From: Lachnospiraceae bacterium
GTDB taxonomy: Bacteria; Bacillota; Clostridia; Lachnospirales; Lachnospiraceae
Direction of reading: 5' to 3'
Length of the DNA stretch: 64,000 nucleotides
NCBI GenBank assembly: GCA_015057635.1
Contig: SVEB01000028.1
Coordinates: forward strand, 62,001 to 126,000
The notes beneath the pieces are model-generated. The model was not told where the DNA came from. It made no database searches and saw only the letters and a list, made by a program, of their open reading frames with translations. Shown here piece after piece: positions 3,046-51,002 of this stretch. Every line of letters begins with the position of its first letter. Positions within the stretch are counted from its first letter, which is position 1. The position numbers and the translations under genes are program-made.

Positions 3046-3211
3046 GTAAATTCTTCCCTCCATTTTTTCTATTATAACAACTCCTTATAGTAAAATAAAT
3101 AAGGATAAAGTAATTTTATGGATTACCCGACGGCATCTTCACATCTTTTGCCTCTTTGTACTGTTATCGTATCCTTTCCAACATTGACTATACCATATCC
3201 ATAAAAGAACG

Positions 3212-4821: not shown

Positions 4822-4899
4822 AGTCGGACTAAGAGAGCGTGAATTCCGGCACATTCAATTTCCCGAATGTGCCGGAATCCACGCTCTCTTAGTCCGACT
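4822..4899. repeat. Long intergenic hairpin, 35-bp arms and 8-nt loop
   Basis: AGTCGGACTAAGAGAGCGTGAATTCCGGCACATTC / GAATGTGCCGGAATCCACGCTCTCTTAGTCCGACT, one non-Watson-Crick position. Confidence 0.95.
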
Positions 4900-4940: not shown

Positions 4941-6650
4941 TTAGGCGGACTGCTCTTCATTAATCACTATATCATTGGACTTTCCAAAGAGTTTATGAAT
5001 ACCCTGGATCGCCACCATGATACCTAAGCCAAGCAAGAGGATCGCGAATACCAACTGAAGACCGTCTTTCACCATAACAAAGTCTGCAGGTGTATTGATC
5101 ATGATCTTAATAATGGACCAGATTTTCTGGATCAAAGCCGTGAATGTGACACCAAGCATAATGACCATCGGTCCCCACAGCATAAAGCCCTGACGCTTGG
5201 TTTGCTTTAAGAATACCGCACAGGCGATTAAAGCAAGTGCCGATAATAACTGGTTTGCGGAACCGAATAATGGCCAAATATTAGCGTATCCAACTTTCGC
5301 CAAAGCAAATCCTAAGATTAAGGTCGCTGCCGTTGCCACGAATTTGTTCGTGCAGACCTTTCTTACAGGCCCCATATCCTCATCTCTGATTGAGGAATCC
5401 AAGAAGAATTCCTGGAAGCTTAAACGTCCTACCCTGGCAACAGAGTCAAGGCTTGTTAAAGCAAATGCGGATACCGCTAAGTTAATAAGGGTATAACATA
5501 CGTCTTTTTGAAGCCCTGCTTTTCCAAGGAAACTCGCAATCGCATTGGCAAAGATATTGGCCGGTGTGTTGGCTACTCCATCCGGAAGCGCGATGGCTGC
5601 TCCTACTGCGACTAATGCGATGACTGCCAATAAGCTTTCTAATAACATCGCTCCGAAGGATACCGGAAGCATATCCTTTTCATTCTTAATCTGCTTGGAT
5701 GCCGTTCCGGAGGATACTAAGGAATGGAATCCGGATACCGCGCCACAGGCGATTGTTACAAATAAAGTCGGGAACAGATAGCTTCCGTTCACCTTAAAGG
5801 AGGTAAAGGCATCCAGATTCATGCTTGGATTATAAACAAAGATACCTACTACCGAACCGATCATCATGGCGATCAAAAGAAAACTATTTAAGTAATCTCT
5901 TGGCTGCAACAATGCCCATACCGGCATAACGGATGCAACAAAGATATAGGCAAATACAAAATAAAGCCAGAAGTTAAGGCCAAAGTAGATCGGTGCATGG
6001 ATGCCGATCATAATAGATGCCACTAAGATTGCAATTGCAACCATTGTATTTACCGTTGTGGAACACTTGGATTTCTTTAAAAAAAGACCTAAACCTACTG
6101 CACCTACAATGAATAATAAAGAGGTCGTTGCAACAGAACCGTTTGCCGCTACTTTCACGGTCACCCCATCTGTCACATTCAAACCATTGAATGTCTTTGC
6201 AACGATATCTGCAAATGCTGCCACGACTAAAATGGAGAACAGCCAGCAGAACAATAAGAACAGCTTTTTACCAAGCTTCCCAATATAAACTTCAATTATG
6301 TACCCGATGGAACGGCCTTTGTTCTTTACGGATGCGTACATGCTCGAAAAGTCCTGCACCGCACCAAAAAAGATTCCGCCTAACAATACCCATAAAAGAA
6401 CCGGAACCCATCCAAAGACAGCAGCCTGAATTGGTCCGTTAATCGGGCCCGCTCCGGCGATGGATGCAAACTGGTGGCCAAATACAACACCTTTGTTTGC
6501 CGGCACATAGTCAACACCATCCTGCATCTCATAGGCTGGTGTTTTCGCTTTTGGATTGATTCCCCACTTCTTCGCCAAATATCTTCCGTATACAAGATAT
6601 GCAGCCGATAATGCGACAATTGCAATTACCATTATTGTGATACCTGTCAT
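4941..6650 (-). CDS. cstA: CstA-family carbon starvation protein / peptide transporter
   Basis: 569 aa, MTGITIMVIAIVALSAAYLVYGRYLAKKWGINPKAKTPAYEMQDGVDYVPANKGVVFGHQFASIAGAGPINGPI. Confidence 0.93.
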   Translation of the reverse strand: MTGITIMVIAIVALSAAYLVYGRYLAKKWGINPKAKTPAYEMQDGVDYVPANKGVVFGHQFASIAGAGPINGPIQAAVFGWVPVLLWVLLGGIFFGAVQDFSSMYASVKNKGRSIGYIIEVYIGKLGKKLFLLFCWLFSILVVAAFADIVAKTFNGLNVTDGVTVKVAANGSVATTSLLFIVGAVGLGLFLKKSKCSTTVNTMVAIAILVASIMIGIHAPIYFGLNFWLYFVFAYIFVASVMPVWALLQPRDYLNSFLLIAMMIGSVVGIFVYNPSMNLDAFTSFKVNGSYLFPTLFVTIACGAVSGFHSLVSSGTASKQIKNEKDMLPVSFGAMLLESLLAVIALVAVGAAIALPDGVANTPANIFANAIASFLGKAGLQKDVCYTLINLAVSAFALTSLDSVARVGRLSFQEFFLDSSIRDEDMGPVRKVCTNKFVATAATLILGFALAKVGYANIWPLFGSANQLLSALALIACAVFLKQTKRQGFMLWGPMVIMLGVTFTALIQKIWSIIKIMINTPADFVMVKDGLQLVFAILLLGLGIMVAIQGIHKLFGKSNDIVINEEQSA

Positions 6651-8619: not shown

Positions 8620-9564
8620 TTAATATTCCGATGTTCTTCTGATATTGGAGTCGAATAAACGCTGGAATCCTAACCAGTCAGTCTTATCATCTGCTCCAGA
8701 TAAAAGTTCGGTCATTGTCTGCATCTTAGCATCCAGATTATCAATCATGGATAAGGCAAGTGCTTCTGCAAGAGCTGGCTTCTTTGGAGAACCATACTCT
8801 AATTCACCGTGATGCGCTAATATACAGTGCATAATTTCATTTGCCATCTTTGGCGGAAATCCCGGAATGGTCTTGATTCGTTCATTCACTTTTGCAGTTC
8901 CGATAAAGATATGACCAAGAAGATTTCCTTCATCGGTATAATCATTCTCTGGGAAAGGAGAGATCTCTTCTAACTTTCCAAGGTCATGAAATAATGCGGA
9001 TGTCACCAAAAGATCACGCTGTAAGATCGGATAGTTATCACACATATAGTTACATAAACGTACGATTCCAAGGGTATGCTCTAAGAGACCTCCAATAAAT
9101 CCATGATGCACGCTCTTTGCGGCAGAGTGATTCTTAAACTTCTTAATAAATTCTTTGTCATCTACGAAGAAACTATTCACAAGCGCCTTTACATGAGGCT
9201 CTTTGATCTTTGCAATATAGGAAAGCAGTTCCTTATACATCTCTTCTACATTCTTTGTTGTGGTTGGCATGAAATCAGCTGGATTGTATTCCCCTTCCTG
9301 ACTTCTGCGAACACGCTTAATGTTTAACTGTAACGTACCTTGGAAGCTTGTAACCTGCCCCTCGATATGTATATAGTCCATTGTTTCAAAGTGATCAATG
9401 CCTGCTCCCAAATCCCATACCTTCGCATCCATGGTTCCGGTCTTGTCCTGTAACAGCATGGAATAATAGCTTTTTCCTGCTTTTGTCTTTAATGTCTGAA
9501 GCTGTTTGCAAAGGTACGTTTCTTTTATCATTTCTCCTTCGCGCAATTCGTTTAAAAATCTCAT
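8620..9564 (-). CDS. yhaM: YhaM-like 3'-5' exoribonuclease (OB fold + HD domain)
   Basis: 314 aa; OB-fold region TYLCKQLQTLKTKAGKSYYSMLLQDKTGTMDAKVW and HD motifs HHGFIGGLLEHTLGIVRLC / SALFHDLGKLEEI. Confidence 0.88.
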   Translation of the reverse strand: MRFLNELREGEMIKETYLCKQLQTLKTKAGKSYYSMLLQDKTGTMDAKVWDLGAGIDHFETMDYIHIEGQVTSFQGTLQLNIKRVRRSQEGEYNPADFMPTTTKNVEEMYKELLSYIAKIKEPHVKALVNSFFVDDKEFIKKFKNHSAAKSVHHGFIGGLLEHTLGIVRLCNYMCDNYPILQRDLLVTSALFHDLGKLEEISPFPENDYTDEGNLLGHIFIGTAKVNERIKTIPGFPPKMANEIMHCILAHHGELEYGSPKKPALAEALALSMIDNLDAKMQTMTELLSGADDKTDWLGFQRLFDSNIRRTSEY

Positions 9565-9659: not shown

Positions 9660-9885
9660 TTACGCCCCCCAGTAAGGGATGAGAGGGAGGCTGGCGTGAA
9701 GCAGTTCCAAATGTTCAGACGCATGAGCGGACAAAAAGATGACTCCGTCTTTGCCTAGCGGACAGGAAAAACTTCTGTCTGCTATTCAAAGACGGAGTCA
9801 CCTTTTTGTTCGTCATGAGCCGGACATTTCGGAACTGCTTCACACCAGCCTCCCTCCCCGCCCCTCCTGGGGCCCCATTCCGCCT
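9660..9885. repeat. Large palindromic element, copy A
   Basis: GGGAGGCTGGCGTGAAGCAGTTCC-AAATGTTCAGACGCATGAGCGGACAAAAAGATGACTCCGTCTTTG ... CAAAGACGGAGTCACCTTTTTGTTCGTCATGAGCCGGACATTTCGGAACTGCTTCACACCAGCCTCCC; clear arms 9685..9854. Confidence 0.95.
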
Positions 9886-10015: not shown

Positions 10016-10038
10016 AAGGTCTTACTTCTTTTGAAGAG
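10001..10038 (-). terminator. 18-bp inverted repeat spanning the stop codon of the HtrA-like gene
   Basis: CTCTTCAGAAGAAGTAAG-GT-CTTACTTCTTTTGAAGAG. Confidence 0.7.
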
Positions 10039-11365
10039 TTACCTGGAAGGACATTTCCTTCATCTCATTTTTGAGGTTACGGTTTATGCTTACCTTAACA
10101 ATTTGTTTCGGCTCTAATGTGTTTAGGATGTTGGCGAAGTTTGTAATGGATACTACATTAGTATCGTTGATGGAGGTGATGATGTCCCCCTGCTTAATGC
10201 CTGCTTTAAAGGCTGGGGAATCGGCTAATACTTCGTTTACATAAATTCCGTTCTCCAGGTTCTGTTCCTGCAGTACACTAAGAGGTACATCCTCTCCGCG
10301 AATGCCAAAGTATACGCGTTCTTCTTTGTTGGCCATCTTTTCGATCAGCCCTTTTAAACGGGATATGCCGATGGCCGTGCTTAACTGCTGGTTTACATCT
10401 TCCCTTAAAGTTCTTGTGATAATGCCGATGATCTCACCTTTCATATTTACGATAATGCCATCGCTGTTCTCATTATCGGTGATATCCGTATTAAACAGCT
10501 CTAATTTATTATCCGTCGTATAGATGATGCTGCCTTTACTTGTAATCATGCCAATCTCCATGGATCCGGCATATCCGTTTGGATTTCCTAATGCGATGAT
10601 CGGTGTTCCTACTGTTATAGAGTACGATTCCCCTAATACAGCGGTCTTAATCTGAGAAAGCTGCTGAGACGGAATATCCTTTAATGGTACCGCTACAACT
10701 GCCAAATTGCAGTCTTCATCATACTCCCAAAGCTCTGCCGATACTGTCGTCGTACTTCCAAATGTAATCTCAATCTTATCCGCATTCTGAATCCGGTCGA
10801 AGTTAGTCAGAATCAGTAAATCTATCTTATTCTCACCGATTACGATTCCGCTTGTATCTTTTCTTGTCTCATAAGCATCATTAAACCAGTCTACCCCGTT
10901 TTCCACCGCTGTGACCGTTACAAGGGAATAGCTTACAGATGTTGCCACCCTCTTGATCTCATTGACCACTTTTTCGTAATCCGCGATGGTCGCATCTACT
11001 TTCTGTTCTACAACCGTGACTTCTTCCTGCTTTTCTTCTTCCGGTTCCGGTGTCGGTGTCAGAGTTGGCAAAATCATTGTCTGACTTGGCCCGATCGGTG
11101 TGATGTCAGCTCCAATCTCTTCCTCCAGTCCTTCGGATGGGATCGTGATCTGCTGCCGCTCCTCGATATCCATTCCGAGCAGTCTTAATACCCAGGATTC
11201 TGATTTGATGAATACAACCCGCGCAATAATTCCGAATATGACAGCTAACACGATTGTCATTGCAAAGGAAGCCGCCACTCGTTTTATCCGGTTTTTTCGG
11301 CGCGGCACTACCTTCTCCTGTATAAACTGAAATTCCTTTTCCGGCTCATGATGATCCTTAACCAT
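10022..11365 (-). CDS. Trypsin-like/HtrA-type PDZ membrane protein, apparently catalytically dead
   Basis: 447 aa: one TM, protease-like fold (ILTNFDRI, NLAVVAV, TDITDNENSDGIIVN, IIALGNPNG) and PDZ domain (YFGIRGEDV...GIYVNEVLADSPAFKAGIKQGDIITSIN). Confidence 0.85.
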   Translation of the reverse strand: MVKDHHEPEKEFQFIQEKVVPRRKNRIKRVAASFAMTIVLAVIFGIIARVVFIKSESWVLRLLGMDIEERQQITIPSEGLEEEIGADITPIGPSQTMILPTLTPTPEPEEEKQEEVTVVEQKVDATIADYEKVVNEIKRVATSVSYSLVTVTAVENGVDWFNDAYETRKDTSGIVIGENKIDLLILTNFDRIQNADKIEITFGSTTTVSAELWEYDEDCNLAVVAVPLKDIPSQQLSQIKTAVLGESYSITVGTPIIALGNPNGYAGSMEIGMITSKGSIIYTTDNKLELFNTDITDNENSDGIIVNMKGEIIGIITRTLREDVNQQLSTAIGISRLKGLIEKMANKEERVYFGIRGEDVPLSVLQEQNLENGIYVNEVLADSPAFKAGIKQGDIITSINDTNVVSITNFANILNTLEPKQIVKVSINRNLKNEMKEMSFQVTLQKK

Positions 11366-26855: not shown

Positions 26856-27261
26856 AAAAAATGTGTTTGGTTGGGAGGATCTCGGAGGGAGGTGTGAGGG
26901 GGAGGATGGGGGTGTGAATGCAGGGGTGGTGAGGTGTTGGAGGCGGTGACGGCTGAGAGGCGCGAGTGGGCGGCGGCGGAGCGATATTTTTTCCAAATGT
27001 TCGGACGCATGATGAACAAAAAGCTGGTTCTGTCTTTGCCTATCAGACAGGAAGGCTTTGTCTGCTATTCAAAGACGGAACCAACTTTTTGTTCATCATG
27101 AGCCGGACATTTCGGAAAAATATTGCCCCGCCGCCACCCACTCACACCTCTCAGCCATCACCGCCTCCAACACCTCTCCATCCCTGCATTCACGCCCCCA
27201 TCCTCCCCCTCACACCTCCCTCCGATATCGCGACGCGTTTACAAAACAAACGCATCGTGAT
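26856..27261. repeat. Large palindromic element, copy B (arms about 150 bp)
   Basis: Left arm TTGGGAGGATCTCGGAGGGAGGTGTGAGGGGGAGGATGGGGG... mirrors right arm ...CCCCCATCCTCCCCCTCACACCTCCCTCCGATATCGCG; centre holds the conserved core. Confidence 0.95.
27227..27261. repeat. Terminal small hairpin of copy B
   Basis: ATCGCGACGCGTTT-ACAAAAC-AAACGCATCGTGAT. Confidence 0.9.
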
Positions 27262-27748: not shown

Positions 27749-27779
27749 CACGATGCGTTTCGTTTAGAAACGCGTCGTG
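27749..27779. repeat. Terminal small hairpin of copy C
   Basis: CACGATGCGTTT-CGTTTAG-AAACGCGTCGTG, matching the end hairpin of copy B. Confidence 0.9.
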
Positions 27780-28177
27780 ATGGCGAAGGGAACCCCATGG
27801 AGGGTGCGCTTTCTTTTGGGGGCGGCGGACGCATGATGGGATGCGTGGGAGAGTGGGGCACAGATGTGGACAAAGCAGGATGTGCGGGAGCAACGGGTAA
27901 TATATTTTCCGGAATGTCCGGCTCATGACGAACAAAAGTGGGAGGTTATCTTTGAATAGCAGACAGCGCCTTCCTGTCTGATAGTCGAAGATAACCTCCC
28001 ATTTTTGTCCGCTCATGCGTCCGAACATTCGGAAAATAGATTGCCCGTCGCTCCCGTGCATCCTGCTTTGTCCACATCTGTGCCCCACTCCTCCACGCAT
28101 CCCATCATGCGCCCGCCGCCCCCAAAAGAAAGCGTACCCTCCATGGGGTTCCCTTCGCCATCCTCCCAACAAACTAC
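27749..28177. repeat. Large palindromic element, copy C, opposite orientation to B (arms about 190 bp)
   Basis: Left arm GGCGAAGGGAACCCCATGGAGGGTGCGCTTTCTTTTGGGGGCGGCGGACGCATGATGGGATGCGTGG... mirrors right arm ...CCACGCATCCCATCATGCGCCCGCCGCCCCCAAAAGAAAGCGTACCCTCCATGGGGTTCCCTTCGCC. Confidence 0.95.
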
Positions 28178-28180
28178 AAA

Positions 28181-28213
28181 AAAAGGACAGCTTAACGGGT
28201 GCTGTCCTTTTTC
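28181..28213. terminator. Bidirectional terminator-like hairpin
   Basis: AAAAAGGACAGCTTAACGGGTGCTGTCCTTTTT. Confidence 0.6.
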
Positions 28214-28452: not shown

Positions 28453-30315
28453 CTACACTTCCTCGCTAACGATATTACCCTCGATTTCCGGCTGCTTTGT
28501 TTCGAATAAAGCTTCGAATTCTTCACGGCCGATTCTTTCCTTTTCAATCAGAAGCGCTGCACAGTTATGAAGCACATCGATATGATCCAGTAAAATCTGT
28601 TTTGCTTCCGCATAACAGCCATCGATGATCTTTCTTACCTCTTCATCAATTGTGCTGGCAACTGTCTCACTGTAGCTTCTTGTATGAGCTAGGTCTCTTC
28701 CGATGAATACTTCATCATCGTCATTGTCATAGTTCACCATACCGATGCTTTCAGAGAAACCATATCTTGTCACCATGCTTCTTGCAGTCTTTGTTGCCAC
28801 CTTGATATCCTGGCTTGCGCCGGTTGTAATATCATCAAATATGATTTCCTCTGCAATACGTCCGCCAAGGCTTACGATAATATCCTGATGCATTCTTCCC
28901 TTTGTATTGAACATCTCATCTTTTTCCGGAAGCGGCATGGTATAGCCTGCTGCACCAGATCCGGTTGGGATGATGGATACGGTATAAACCGGTCCTACAT
29001 CCGGAAGCACATGGAATAGAATTGCATGGCCTGCTTCATGATATGCAGTGATTTTCTTTTCTTTTTCTGTAATGACACGGCTCTTCTTCTCTGTTCCGAT
29101 TCCTACCTTAATAAAGGATTTCTTAATATCCTCAAACTTGATGAAGTTACGGTCATCCTTTGCAGCGCTAATTGCTGCTTCATTTAAAAGATTCTCAAGA
29201 TCTGCTCCGGTAAAGCCTGCTGTTGTCTGCGCGATCTGCTTTAAGTCAACATCCTCTGCAAGCGGCTTTCCTTTTGCATGTACCTGTAAGATTTCCTCTC
29301 TTCCCTTTACATCCGGTCTTCCAACCATGACTTTACGGTCAAAACGGCCTGCACGAAGGATAGCAGGATCTAAGATATCCACACGGTTTGTGGCCGCCAT
29401 TACGATAATTCCTTCGTTCACGCCAAATCCATCCATCTCTACTAACAGCTGGTTTAACGTCTGCTCTCTTTCATCGTGGCCGCCGCCCATGCCGGTACCT
29501 CTTCGTCTTGCAACGGCATCGATTTCATCAATAAAGATGATACATGGGGAATTCTTCTTTGCTTCCGCAAATAAGTCACGCACACGAGATGCGCCGACAC
29601 CAACGAACATTTCCACGAAATCCGAACCCGAAATGGAGAAGAACGGAACGCCTGCTTCTCCGGCAACTGCTTTCGCAAGCAGTGTCTTACCGGTTCCAGG
29701 AGGTCCTTCCAATAAAACACCTTTCGGAATTCTTGCACCTACCTGAATATATTTCTTTGGATTCTTTAAGAAATCTACGATTTCTCTTAATTCTTCCTTT
29801 TCTTCCTGAAGGCCTGCCACATTCTTAAATGTAGTGTTCTTGCCTTCATCGGTCGTCATCTTAGCCCGGCTCTTGCCAAAGTTCATCACTTTGGAATTTC
29901 CACCGCCGCCGGCACCCATCTGACTGGTTAAGAATGAAAACATCAGGATAATGACTACGAAGCCTAACAGATATGGAAGCACGCTTGTTAAAAACCAGCT
30001 TGGCTTCTGCACATCATTCATAAGAGCAGTAACGCCATGTTCCTCTGCATCCTGTCTTGCTTCCTTCGTATCTGCCACGTATACGCTGTAACTCTTTCCG
30101 TCTTCCGTGGTAACCCGTATCTCGCCGGTCGGTGCCTCTTCATTCTGATAGATATCGACTACTTTAACTGTTCCACTTTCCAGACTGCGTATATAGTCAG
30201 CATAACTGTAATTTTGGGAGCTTCCGCTTCCCATTCCCTCTGACAAATAAACTGCAGCCATAATGATTAGCAGGATAATGACATAAAAGCCATATCCCCT
30301 CATTGACTTTTTCAA
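28453..30315 (-). CDS. ftsH: ATP-dependent zinc metalloprotease FtsH
   Basis: 620 aa; [67 protein letters not shown] zinc motif. Confidence 0.98.
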
Positions 30316-37629: not shown

Positions 37630-37706
37630 CCCCTATAATATAGAAGAAAGAGCATCCATCTCCTTTTTTTCAGGAAATGAATGCTCTTTCTTCTATATTA
37701 TAGGGG
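37630..37706. repeat. Long hairpin (35-bp arms, 7-nt loop) overlapping the patatin gene stop codon
   Basis: Minus strand: CCCCTATAATATAGAAGAAAGAGCATTCATTTCCT-GAAAAAA-AGGAGATGGATGCTCTTTCTTCTATATTATAGGGG; outer 20 bp perfect, two G-T positions. Confidence 0.95.
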
Positions 37707-48624: not shown

Positions 48625-50736
48625 ATGCAGATACATTTTCACAAACCAGACTCAAACGAATGGAAGAAAAAATTAAAACACCCTATGGTTGTTTGCTTTT
48701 TGGTAGCGTTTGGTCTGAACCTTTTTGTTGAAGCAATGTCAAGATGCTCACTGTTTGGCGCATTCGGATACTTATTCACCAATCCGCTCGTATTCCTTTA
48801 CAATACTGTGATTATCGCAGCCACGCTTTCCATCACGCTCCTGTTTCGAAAGCGCACATTTGCTATGACATTCGTTTCCCTTCTATGGGTGATCATCGGT
48901 ATCACGGATTTCATCCTGTTACAGTTTCGTACGACACCTTTCACCGCAATCGATATTCTGATGATCAAATCCGCCATTGAAATTTGGCAGTACTACCTAA
49001 ACTCCTTCCATCTGATCTTAATCGGAGCGGGCCTTGTCCTCTTAATCCTTGGACTAGTTTTCTTATGGAGAAAGACAAAGAAAATAACCGGAAAGATTGC
49101 ATTTTACAAAGTGTTAGCCTTTAGTGCCATCACCTTTCTTTCCTCCCTTTTGTTAACGGAAGCCGGCCTTAAGACAAATCTTTTAGCCGCGAACTTCGGG
49201 AATCTGGCAGATGCCTTTCACGAGTATGGCCTCCCATACTGTTTCGTAAACAGTGTGATCAATACGGGAATTGACAAACCAAAGCACTATTCCCCGGACG
49301 TGGTGAATCAAATTGTAAACGCAGTAGAAGAAGGGGTTGTCGTACAGCCTTCCGATATCATTCCAACCAATAAACCGGATACACTTCCTACTGCCACACC
49401 AACTCCGACTGCAACTCCGACACCAACTCCAACTGTTGTACCGGAAGCTGCAAACCCTTATCCAAATATCATTATGGTGCAGCTCGAATCCTTCTTTGAT
49501 CCAGCGCATATTAAAGGAATCACCTTCACCTCAGATCCAGTTCCAAATTATCGAAACCTGGTCAACAATTACTCTTCCGGATACTTAAATGTACCTAGCG
49601 TTGGTGCTGGAACCGCTAATACCGAGTTCGAAATCATTACCGGCATGAACCTTGACTTCTTTGGTCCCGGCGAATATCCTTACAAAACGATTTTACAGGA
49701 AATGACCTGTGAAAGCGTGAATTTCAACTTAAAGACATTAGACTATACAACCCACGCAATTCATAACAATACCGGAACCTTCTACGACCGTAATAAGATT
49801 TTCTCCCAGCTCGGATTTGATACCTTCACATCTGTGGAATATATGAACAATGTGGAACACACACCGCTTGGCTGGGCAAAAGATGATATTTTAGTAGGTG
49901 AGATTGATAAAGCGCTTAAAGACACAGATGGCCAGGATTTCGTTTATACCATTTCCGTACAGGGACATGGAAGCTACCCATCCGAGCCAATTCTTAAAAA
50001 TCCGGAAATCGACTTAACGCTTCCTAGTAACTTATCAAGCGACTTATATTACCCGCTTCTTTACTATGTGAACCAGATTCACGAGATGGATGATTTCATC
50101 GCCCATCTTATGGACTATGTTGACTCCCTTTCCGAAGATACCGTCTTAATTATGTATGGCGATCATCTTCCTGGCTTTAAGCTAGAAGCGACCGATTTAG
50201 ACAATGAATCCTTATTCCAGACGCAGTATGTCATGTACAGCAACTTTGCAATGGATACCATTCACAAAGATTTGGAATCCTATCAGCTGTACTCTTATGT
50301 ATTAGAGCGTCTTGGCATCAGCGTCGGGCTTATTCCAAAGCTTCACCAGACACAGCAAGATTCTGAAGTTTATTTGGATGAGTTGAAAATTTTAGAATAC
50401 GACATGCTTTATGGCGACTTAGACTGCTATGGCGGTGTGAATCCGAACGTTGCGACCGATCTTCAGATGGGCATCGATCCGATCACCATCAACAACGTGC
50501 AGTTAATCCCGGTAAATGATACGGAAGACCAAAATATCTGTATCGTAACCGGTGATAATTTCACTCCATACAGTAAGATCTGCGTAAATGGCTCCTATGT
50601 CACAACGACTTTCCAGGATTCCCACACACTGACCGCATCCGACGTGACCCTCTCCTCTGGCGACCAGGTCACCGTAGTTCAAAGCGGCACCGACATGGTA
50701 GTCCTTAGTTCCACTGAACCTTGGATACAAGACTAG
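48625..50736 (+). CDS. LTA synthase family (sulfatase) membrane protein with C-terminal IPT/TIG-like domain
   Basis: 703 aa; N-terminal TM helices, PTATPTPTATPTPTPT linker, IIMVQLESFFDP, VGAGTANTEFEIITGM, TISVQGHGSYPSEP, MYGDHLPG; C-term ICIVTGDNFTPYSKICVNGSYVTTTFQDSHTLTASDV. Confidence 0.9.
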   Translation: MQIHFHKPDSNEWKKKLKHPMVVCFLVAFGLNLFVEAMSRCSLFGAFGYLFTNPLVFLYNTVIIAATLSITLLFRKRTFAMTFVSLLWVIIGITDFILLQFRTTPFTAIDILMIKSAIEIWQYYLNSFHLILIGAGLVLLILGLVFLWRKTKKITGKIAFYKVLAFSAITFLSSLLLTEAGLKTNLLAANFGNLADAFHEYGLPYCFVNSVINTGIDKPKHYSPDVVNQIVNAVEEGVVVQPSDIIPTNKPDTLPTATPTPTATPTPTPTVVPEAANPYPNIIMVQLESFFDPAHIKGITFTSDPVPNYRNLVNNYSSGYLNVPSVGAGTANTEFEIITGMNLDFFGPGEYPYKTILQEMTCESVNFNLKTLDYTTHAIHNNTGTFYDRNKIFSQLGFDTFTSVEYMNNVEHTPLGWAKDDILVGEIDKALKDTDGQDFVYTISVQGHGSYPSEPILKNPEIDLTLPSNLSSDLYYPLLYYVNQIHEMDDFIAHLMDYVDSLSEDTVLIMYGDHLPGFKLEATDLDNESLFQTQYVMYSNFAMDTIHKDLESYQLYSYVLERLGISVGLIPKLHQTQQDSEVYLDELKILEYDMLYGDLDCYGGVNPNVATDLQMGIDPITINNVQLIPVNDTEDQNICIVTGDNFTPYSKICVNGSYVTTTFQDSHTLTASDVTLSSGDQVTVVQSGTDMVVLSSTEPWIQD

Positions 50737-50778
50737 AATGTGCGAACGGTAGTAAGCACACGTAAGACAAAAAAGAGG

Positions 50779-50940
50779 GGATGGCGCGCTATCTTTTTTG
50801 AATGTTCAGACGCATGAGCGAATAAAAAGACGCCCGGTTCTTTTCCTGGCAGACAGCAAATTCATCTGTCTGCCAGGAAAAGAGCCGGGCGTTTTTTTGT
50901 TCGTCATAAGCCGAATATTCAAAAAAATAGTGCGCCATCC
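50779..50940. repeat. Large palindromic element, copy D
   Basis: GGATGGCGCGCTATCTTTTTTGAATGTTCAGACGCATGAGCGAATAAAAAGACGCCCGGTTCTTTTCCTGGCAGACAG ... CTGTCTGCCAGGAAAAGAGCCGGGCGTTTTTTTGTTCGTCATAAGCCGAATATTCAAAAAAATAGTGCGCCATCC. Confidence 0.95.
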
Positions 50941-51002
50941 TCCGTAGCCATTGTCCACACCATCGCGCCTCGCTTCCCGGATTTCTCACGGTCCATCCGT
51001 CT

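Follow-up and report, generated by a model that had tools for sequence, protein, structure and literature searches.

ERIC, BOX and RUP elements are non-coding, dispersed intergenic palindromes that keep most of their unit sequence, and integron attC sites are imperfect hairpins that sit right after a gene and combine conserved blocks with a variable stem. BOX and RUP have been described as intergenic palindromic repeats (PMC3049150). REPs, which are 20–40 bp long with inter-REP spacings of 71–110 bp, and the REPINs are high-copy, extragenic, lineage-specific hairpins that lie for the most part 3' of genes, where the gap is tandem or convergent; their conserved blocks are separated by stretches that are constrained in length and pairing and often show compensatory changes (PMC3116915, PMC3733652, PMC2817692). 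Intrinsic terminators, including bidirectional and DUS-containing ones, follow the stop codon and are built of an A-tract, a stem, a loop and a U-tract (PMC1852404).

The palindromes described here, four of which lie in the window (the whole 64,000-nucleotide stretch of Lachnospiraceae DNA that was analysed), have something in common with most of these systems. Like REPs and REPINs, they are high-copy extragenic hairpins, found mainly 3' of genes, with frequent compensatory changes. They differ in being much larger (about 210 bp and up to 453 bp), in carrying a terminator and in having their conserved block at the center with free arms outside. A RAYT flanked by repeats and lying outside a tnpA/tnpB insertion sequence was not found in the genome, and in place of a 20–40 bp unit with a GTAG or CGTC tag the termini read GACGGAC...TGTTTGGTG or TTTAGGGGGATGTCG...CGACATC. 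With no RAYT found, no tag and a different size, the family is REPIN-like in organization yet is not REP or REPIN by membership. Compared with intrinsic terminators, the place after the stop codon and the succession of A-tract, stem, loop and U-tract are alike, but the palindromes share a core and an apex among unrelated genes and wrap an extra arm, usually about 45 bp and up to 170 bp, around the terminator. They are set apart from ERIC, BOX and RUP by stems that are mostly copy-specific, a distinction that is drawn from description, with sequence comparison through Rfam only. Like attC sites, they are imperfect hairpins right after genes with conserved blocks and variable stems, but their neighbors are ordinary housekeeping loci (rpoC, thrS, ileS), not cassettes, and no attC R'/R'' consensus was seen in them by eye. 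A word-match search of open papers found no published description of the family. The most likely explanation, in our view, is a non-autonomous, dispersed, REPIN-like hairpin with a built-in intrinsic terminator, which many genes of one clade have come to use as their own.

Four palindromes in the window

A first-pass annotation of the window had picked out four intergenic sites with a common layout, and all four are present with that layout; their inverted-repeat spans are listed below (that of copy D is approximate). Each folds far better than its dinucleotide shuffles, none of which was as good (z-scores of −14.8 for A, −37.3 for B, −34.7 for C and −19.0 for D). The covariance-model check that the annotation had proposed was run with 27 aligned copies, A and C among them and B and D outside the alignment, and it matches the window at precisely those four places, each on its better strand (E = 1.5e-31 for A, 3.3e-28 for B, 8.5e-34 for C and 4.6e-22 for D). 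Judged by their cores, A, B and D lie on the plus strand and C on the minus strand. The features are as follows.

9667..9872, plus: copy A, whole palindrome with outer arms, cores and inner terminator-type hairpin (inverted repeat, fold, covariance model)
9710..9737, plus: copy A left core, AATGTTCAGACGCATGAGCGGACAAAAA (sequence, family consensus)
9728..9812, plus: copy A inner terminator-type hairpin, with A-tract, copy-specific stem, CGGACAG/CTGTCTG apex and U-tract
9808..9828, plus: copy A right core, GTTCGTCATGAGCCGGACATT
26878..27229, plus: copy B, whole palindrome with long outer arms of about 115 bp
26996..27022, plus: copy B left core, converted: it complements the copy's right core exactly over CATGATGAACAAAAA
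27091..27111, plus: copy B right core, GTTCATCATGAGCCGGACATT
27231..27259, plus: terminal accessory hairpin adjoining copy B (CGACGCGTTT...AAACGCATCGTG)
27749..27779, minus: terminal accessory hairpin adjoining copy C (CACGATGCGTTTC...GAAACGCGTCGTG)
27779..28162, minus: copy C, whole palindrome, 3' of ftsH (28453–30315, minus)
27913..27933, minus: copy C right core, GTTCGTCATGAGCCGGACATT on the minus strand
27929..28011, minus: copy C inner terminator-type hairpin
28002..28029, minus: copy C left core, AATGTTCGGACGCATGAGCGGACAAAAA on the minus strand
50777..50942, plus: copy D, whole palindrome, about 40 nt beyond the stop of a sulfatase gene (48625–50736, plus) on the same strand
50801..50828, plus: copy D left core, divergent, AATGTTCAGACGCATGAGCGAATAAAAA
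50819..50903, plus: copy D inner terminator-type hairpin, apex stem fully paired
50899..50919, plus: copy D right core, divergent, GTTCGTCATAAGCCGAATATT

The shared-core layout holds overall, with one correction: the left core of copy B reads CATGATGAACAAAAA instead of the consensus that the annotation gave for all four. Its placement of copy A between the 3' end of an HtrA-like gene and the start of a YhaM-like gene agrees with domain content. The HtrA-like gene (10022–11365, minus; Trypsin_2 and PDZ) ends at copy A, the YhaM-like gene (8620–9564, minus; HD and OB) starts beside it, and copy A is oriented against both. Between ftsH and copy C lies an ordinary-looking hairpin with a T-run, at about 28170–28212.

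Above the Rfam gathering threshold the window contains tRNAs only, and the palindromes have no Rfam match; at a low threshold, the hits to copies A and D were for the most part to hairpin models of eukaryotic miRNAs and snoRNAs, and every one of them scored well under cut-off. Two further long hairpins in the window have no core. The one at 4822–4899, a near-perfect 35-bp hairpin about 42 nt beyond the stop of the gene at 4941–6650 (minus), has AATTCCGGCACATTC at its center and is possibly an internally deleted family member; the other is at 37630–37706 (35 bp, 94%).

Copy number and lineage range

The four palindromes had been taken for a four-member family, but the window's own genome (G000, 94.6% complete) holds at least 150 copies by the covariance model and the right-core search. 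Further copies genome-wide are thus plentiful, and the sister species (G004, 78% complete) adds at least 147 covariance-model matches. With up to three mismatches, the 21-mer of the right core matches 162 times in G000, 75 times in G004 and, among three other members of the genus, 0 times in G001, 0 times in G002 and once, at three mismatches, in G003; the reversed pattern has 0 matches in G000. The covariance model, with up to 150 candidates scored per genome, finds no copy in G001, G002 or G003. An exact scan of this 21-mer across 85,462 species genomes found it elsewhere only in the uncultured Lachnospiraceae MAG CALZIE, which by its contig coordinates is G004, and among 397 sampled Lachnospiraceae the remaining matches number one or two per genome at two or three mismatches, as for the reversed control, that is, at chance level. 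The family is lineage-specific and belongs to two sister species of gut bacteria.

The apex CAGACAG...CTGTCTG occurs 158 times in G000; as about 71 of 107 sampled copies have it in exact form, a total of about 235 copies can be taken as a fair estimate for that genome. The assemblies of both carriers are fragmented drafts, and that of the sister species is titled as a MAG. Many contig ends (C82 and C86 in G000; C4, C303 and C20 in G004) lie within about 150 bp of a copy, and because the assemblies break at palindromes, the copy counts are probably low. Most statistics below come from 1.26 Mb of G000 and 0.40 Mb of G004; densities in them are biased, as the G004 regions and part of the G000 regions were picked for holding copies. 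An assembly artefact is ruled out, since two independent MAGs share orthologous copies with diverged yet self-complementary arms.

Anatomy and subfamilies

A hairpin census of the 1.26 Mb of G000 returned 146 long hairpins, 107 of which have the cores and are sharply separated from the rest. From the outside in, a copy consists of a base helix, an outer arm that is specific to each copy and at least about 45 bp long, a conserved core with internal loops, an A-tract, a copy-specific inner stem and the conserved CAGACAG/CTGTCTG apex, followed by the mirror half with a U-tract. Most subfamilies cluster at spans of 203–220 bp, a long-armed subfamily spans about 300–360 bp and the maximum is the 453 bp given above. 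Subfamilies differ by matched changes in the middle core helix (CATGA/TCATG, CGAGA/TCTCG, CAAGA/TCTTG). Subfamily A has the ends GACGGAC|GG...CC|TGTTTGG, in which CGGAC is able to pair with GTTTG; subfamily B starts with TTTAGGGGGATGTCG and ends with CGACATC, followed by a small hairpin (ACAATGCGTTTC...GAAACGCATTGT). Among subfamily A copies, 69 of 74 have four to six T within the six nucleotides after the stem, and a clear U-tract is mostly absent from subfamily B. With its A-tract and U-tract, the inner hairpin is an intrinsic terminator by anatomy.

The two cores together form a direct repeat, CATGAGC(C)GGACA. At least four copies have no inner hairpin (C65:216072, C25:90042, L155:4231 minus and L158:7579 minus), and we read the junctions of loss in these four as sitting at the core direct repeat.

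Position after genes and replacement of ordinary terminators

A same-strand gene stop lies within 400 nt upstream of 93 of the 107 copies, mostly 3–60 nt before the arm. On the contigs for which genes were called, with a simple ORF scorer, 39 copies sit between tandem genes, 19 between convergent genes and none between divergent genes (the chance of zero divergent copies is about 1e-5); in tandem gaps, 29 copies are oriented with the genes and 10, copy A included, against them (p 0.003). Subfamily A copies place a stem-loop and U-tract soon after a stop codon, as intrinsic terminators do. As an aside, copy-bearing genes end in TAG unusually often: 63 of 93 do so in an ORF scan of the G000 copies in the 1.26 Mb, and among gene calls TAG closes 18 of 28 genes with a copy vs 91 of 257 without one.

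What do relatives have at these places? For six genes that carry a palindrome in G000, G004 or both, which we take from reading their protein tails to be rpoC, carB, thrS, ileS, a U32-peptidase-like gene and an ABC-F-like gene, the same place in the non-carrier genomes G001–G003, as retrieved per gene (the ABC-F-like gene in G003 ran past the end of the locus), holds ordinary hairpin-plus-T-run terminators. Additionally, at several loci G000 and G004 differ, one having a palindrome and the other an ordinary terminator, in both directions, and some of these ordinary terminators bear a CAGACA-type apex. The comparison with empty sites that had been suggested yielded sister alleles that have ordinary terminators in place of the palindrome, not clean empty sites; the intergenic DNA of these alleles is too diverged to define a target-site duplication.

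In other words, the element sits in place of the gene's intrinsic terminator, a specific role that was missing from the candidates proposed at first (a mobile palindrome, a structured or double-stranded RNA, a cruciform protein-binding site). Among those candidates, the structured non-coding RNA gains from these data to the extent that position, orientation and the A-tract/U-tract hairpin support a transcribed 3' structure. Anatomy and position suggest that the palindromes would terminate transcription. Some copies are reversed or lie beyond an ordinary terminator, and therefore not every copy is its gene's terminator.

Arms that vary freely and stay paired

Arms are unique to their locus, apart from those of orthologues, a single tandem duplicate, a locus that was fetched twice and some short matches. 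Between orthologous loci of the two species, mean identity is 0.83 at the gene end, 0.88 in the cores, 0.67 in the outer arms and 0.55 in the downstream flank, for comparison with 0.50 between non-orthologous arms. Pairing, in turn, is kept: most stem positions are 93–97% Watson–Crick over roughly the first 48 nt, falling lower at 12–15 nt. In the alignment, 95.3% of cells are paired, 38 of the 58 modelled pairs change on both sides (none of 500 shuffles is as high), and there are 275 double vs about 17 single changes, counted as cells and not as events. Four orthologous G000/G004 pairs with alignable arms show 13 transversions and 5 transitions that are fully compensated, and 7 A.C, 4 G.T and 1 other change that are not. 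The best reading is that arm sequence is free and that only pairing and length are maintained. The 12–15 nt stretch, measured from the right core end, has a local excess of A.C/C.A mismatches that copy A also shows.

How complementarity is kept may be visible in the apex. Its stem normally has two mismatches (CTATC/CTATT; 57 copies in G000 and 31 in G004). In 11 copies of G000 and 1 of G004 it is symmetrised, the right side complementing the left at the two positions; a few copies are symmetrised in the opposite sense, with the left the complement of the right. At several orthologous loci the apex is symmetrised in one species and mismatched in the other, and the core of copy B is in the same symmetrised state, making it an arm-converted copy. 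The joint resolution of two linked mismatches speaks for one arm having served as template for the other, as happens in quasipalindrome correction and in template switching (PMC7202029, PMC8794818). Hairpins maintained in this way likewise show multi-base compensated changes and homogenized arms (PMC8794818, PMC7202029); the difference is that template switching has been described for assorted stems and would act here on a dispersed family of long palindromes. The symmetrised copies support arm copying as a process, which may or may not be what maintains the long arms. At the core, arm copying must be rare or opposed by selection, because the conserved core mismatches persist in most copies.

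Mechanism and alternative explanations

Our preferred explanation, to which we give a probability of roughly 0.6, is that these lineage-specific palindromes act as 3'-end intrinsic terminators, that their pairing is kept by selection together with arm copying, and that their core spread as a non-autonomous hairpin. RNA polymerase leaving a gene would transcribe the inner hairpin and U-tract and then stop, and because the inner hairpin is nearly symmetric it could work in both directions. The most likely reason for the kept pairing would be selection on the hairpin plus replicative template switching between the arms, which would turn imperfect palindromes perfect, and the shared core would have been dispersed, as a non-autonomous hairpin element, by some mobilizing enzyme. 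We put forward more tentatively, at clearly less than even odds, a stronger version: that the lineage replaced a large part of its ordinary terminators by self-repairing palindromes, in which arm copying by template switching lets complementarity be inherited without selection on each base pair while doubling as a termination system.

Selection on the transcript alone could also keep the arms paired, if the palindrome were a structured RNA element (a 3'-end stabilizer, an RNase III substrate or a protein-binding 3' UTR) for which termination is secondary. Conserved internal loops, a bulge and the apex amid freely varying helices, conserved G.U wobbles in the core on the gene-sense strand and the strong bias to gene-sense 3' positions all speak for such an element; however, G.U mismatches should then outnumber A.C on the transcribed strand, and the outer arms have 158 GT vs 225 AC. 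A clear excess of A.C over G.T was our first impression and did not last, being partly due to the 12–15 nt hotspot and to minor subfamilies: away from the hotspot the counts are 52:49 and 39:35 in gene-sense contexts. The ordinary terminators of the same genome give 144:106. A clear G.U excess, which would mark an RNA strand, is not seen in the arms, and one-sided intermediates are few in the alignment. The test has little power, since transcription may run through many copies both ways, and on balance we consider a structured RNA element less likely than not as the primary role. Near parity of GT and AC is what would be expected if DNA, not RNA, mattered, and together with the conserved core loops it could indicate a cruciform or hairpin site for a nucleoid, supercoiling or recombination protein, placed after genes where supercoiling accumulates. 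Such a site leaves the A-tract and U-tract around the inner stem and the replacement of ordinary terminators unexplained, has no known binding protein and would coexist in this genome with an encoded SbcD, which belongs to a nuclease that cleaves hairpins in DNA; we consider it improbable.

A DNA hairpin would need its pairing as much as an RNA one if the family were a selfish, non-autonomous mobile hairpin (REPIN- or MITE-like) that moves as single-stranded DNA, the 3' site being a safe niche or target preference and the terminator incidental. High dispersed copy number within one clade, near-constant length with conserved ends in two subfamilies and the REPIN-like organization all fit, and make this possible, if still the weaker bet when set against its own difficulties: arms differ between copies, contrary to recent whole-unit transposition, many sites are common to both species, and subfamily A copies near a stop codon replace an ordinary terminator and are not added to one. 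Nor was a RAYT or other linked transposase found in the genome, or a viral, phage or plasmid copy in our searches. The non-autonomous mobile palindrome proposed at first is thus upheld in its dispersal (at least 150 copies, one clade, palindrome and ordinary-terminator alleles between sister species), and no mobilizing enzyme was found for it.

Searches for a mobilizing enzyme

The Y1 transposase profile PF01797 found two genes only in G000, which at 94.6% completeness may hide a missed gene, and neither is a single-gene RAYT. That on C34 (L131 2765–4740) belongs to an IS605-type tnpA/tnpB element with its own ends, directly beyond the pckA copy; that on C115, a short contig where no family copy is seen, is a tnpA of the IS200/605 type. 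IS605 and RAYT were rejected as mobilizers, the IS605 ends being unlike the element and a single-gene RAYT not having been found in the genome. The IS605 left end on C34 contains GTCATGAG, which resembles the right core over eight bases, probably by coincidence. An autonomous element with the subfamily B terminal hairpin at its boundaries was likewise set aside, since the inspected copies adjoin palindromes and not transposases, as was a phage, plasmid or virus vector, for which searches gave no match. Mobility is suggested by the dispersal of the core, with no mobilizing enzyme found and no target duplication that could be defined.

Implications and further observations

If the preferred explanation is right, one repeat family can overwrite a genome's terminators within a single genus. 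The parallel copies, which number in the hundreds and have orthologues in a sister species, also provide a natural experiment on how long stems stay paired; whether selection or template switching keeps them so is a question still open for RNA evolution (PMC8794818). That stems of about 100 bp occur alongside an encoded SbcD bears, in addition, on the survival of palindromes in bacteria; absence of SbcCD was dismissed as the cause of that survival, as SbcD, the one subunit looked at, is encoded in all five genus members.

Two loci in the sister species deserve mention. At about 8808–9060 of L158 (G004), an extra, unrelated hairpin is nested within a family copy, directly before the right core. 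At 3140–4000 of L149, two adjoining inverted G004 copies correspond to one G000 copy (C81:18182) whose outer arms mismatch, a difference that suggests recombination between neighboring cores.
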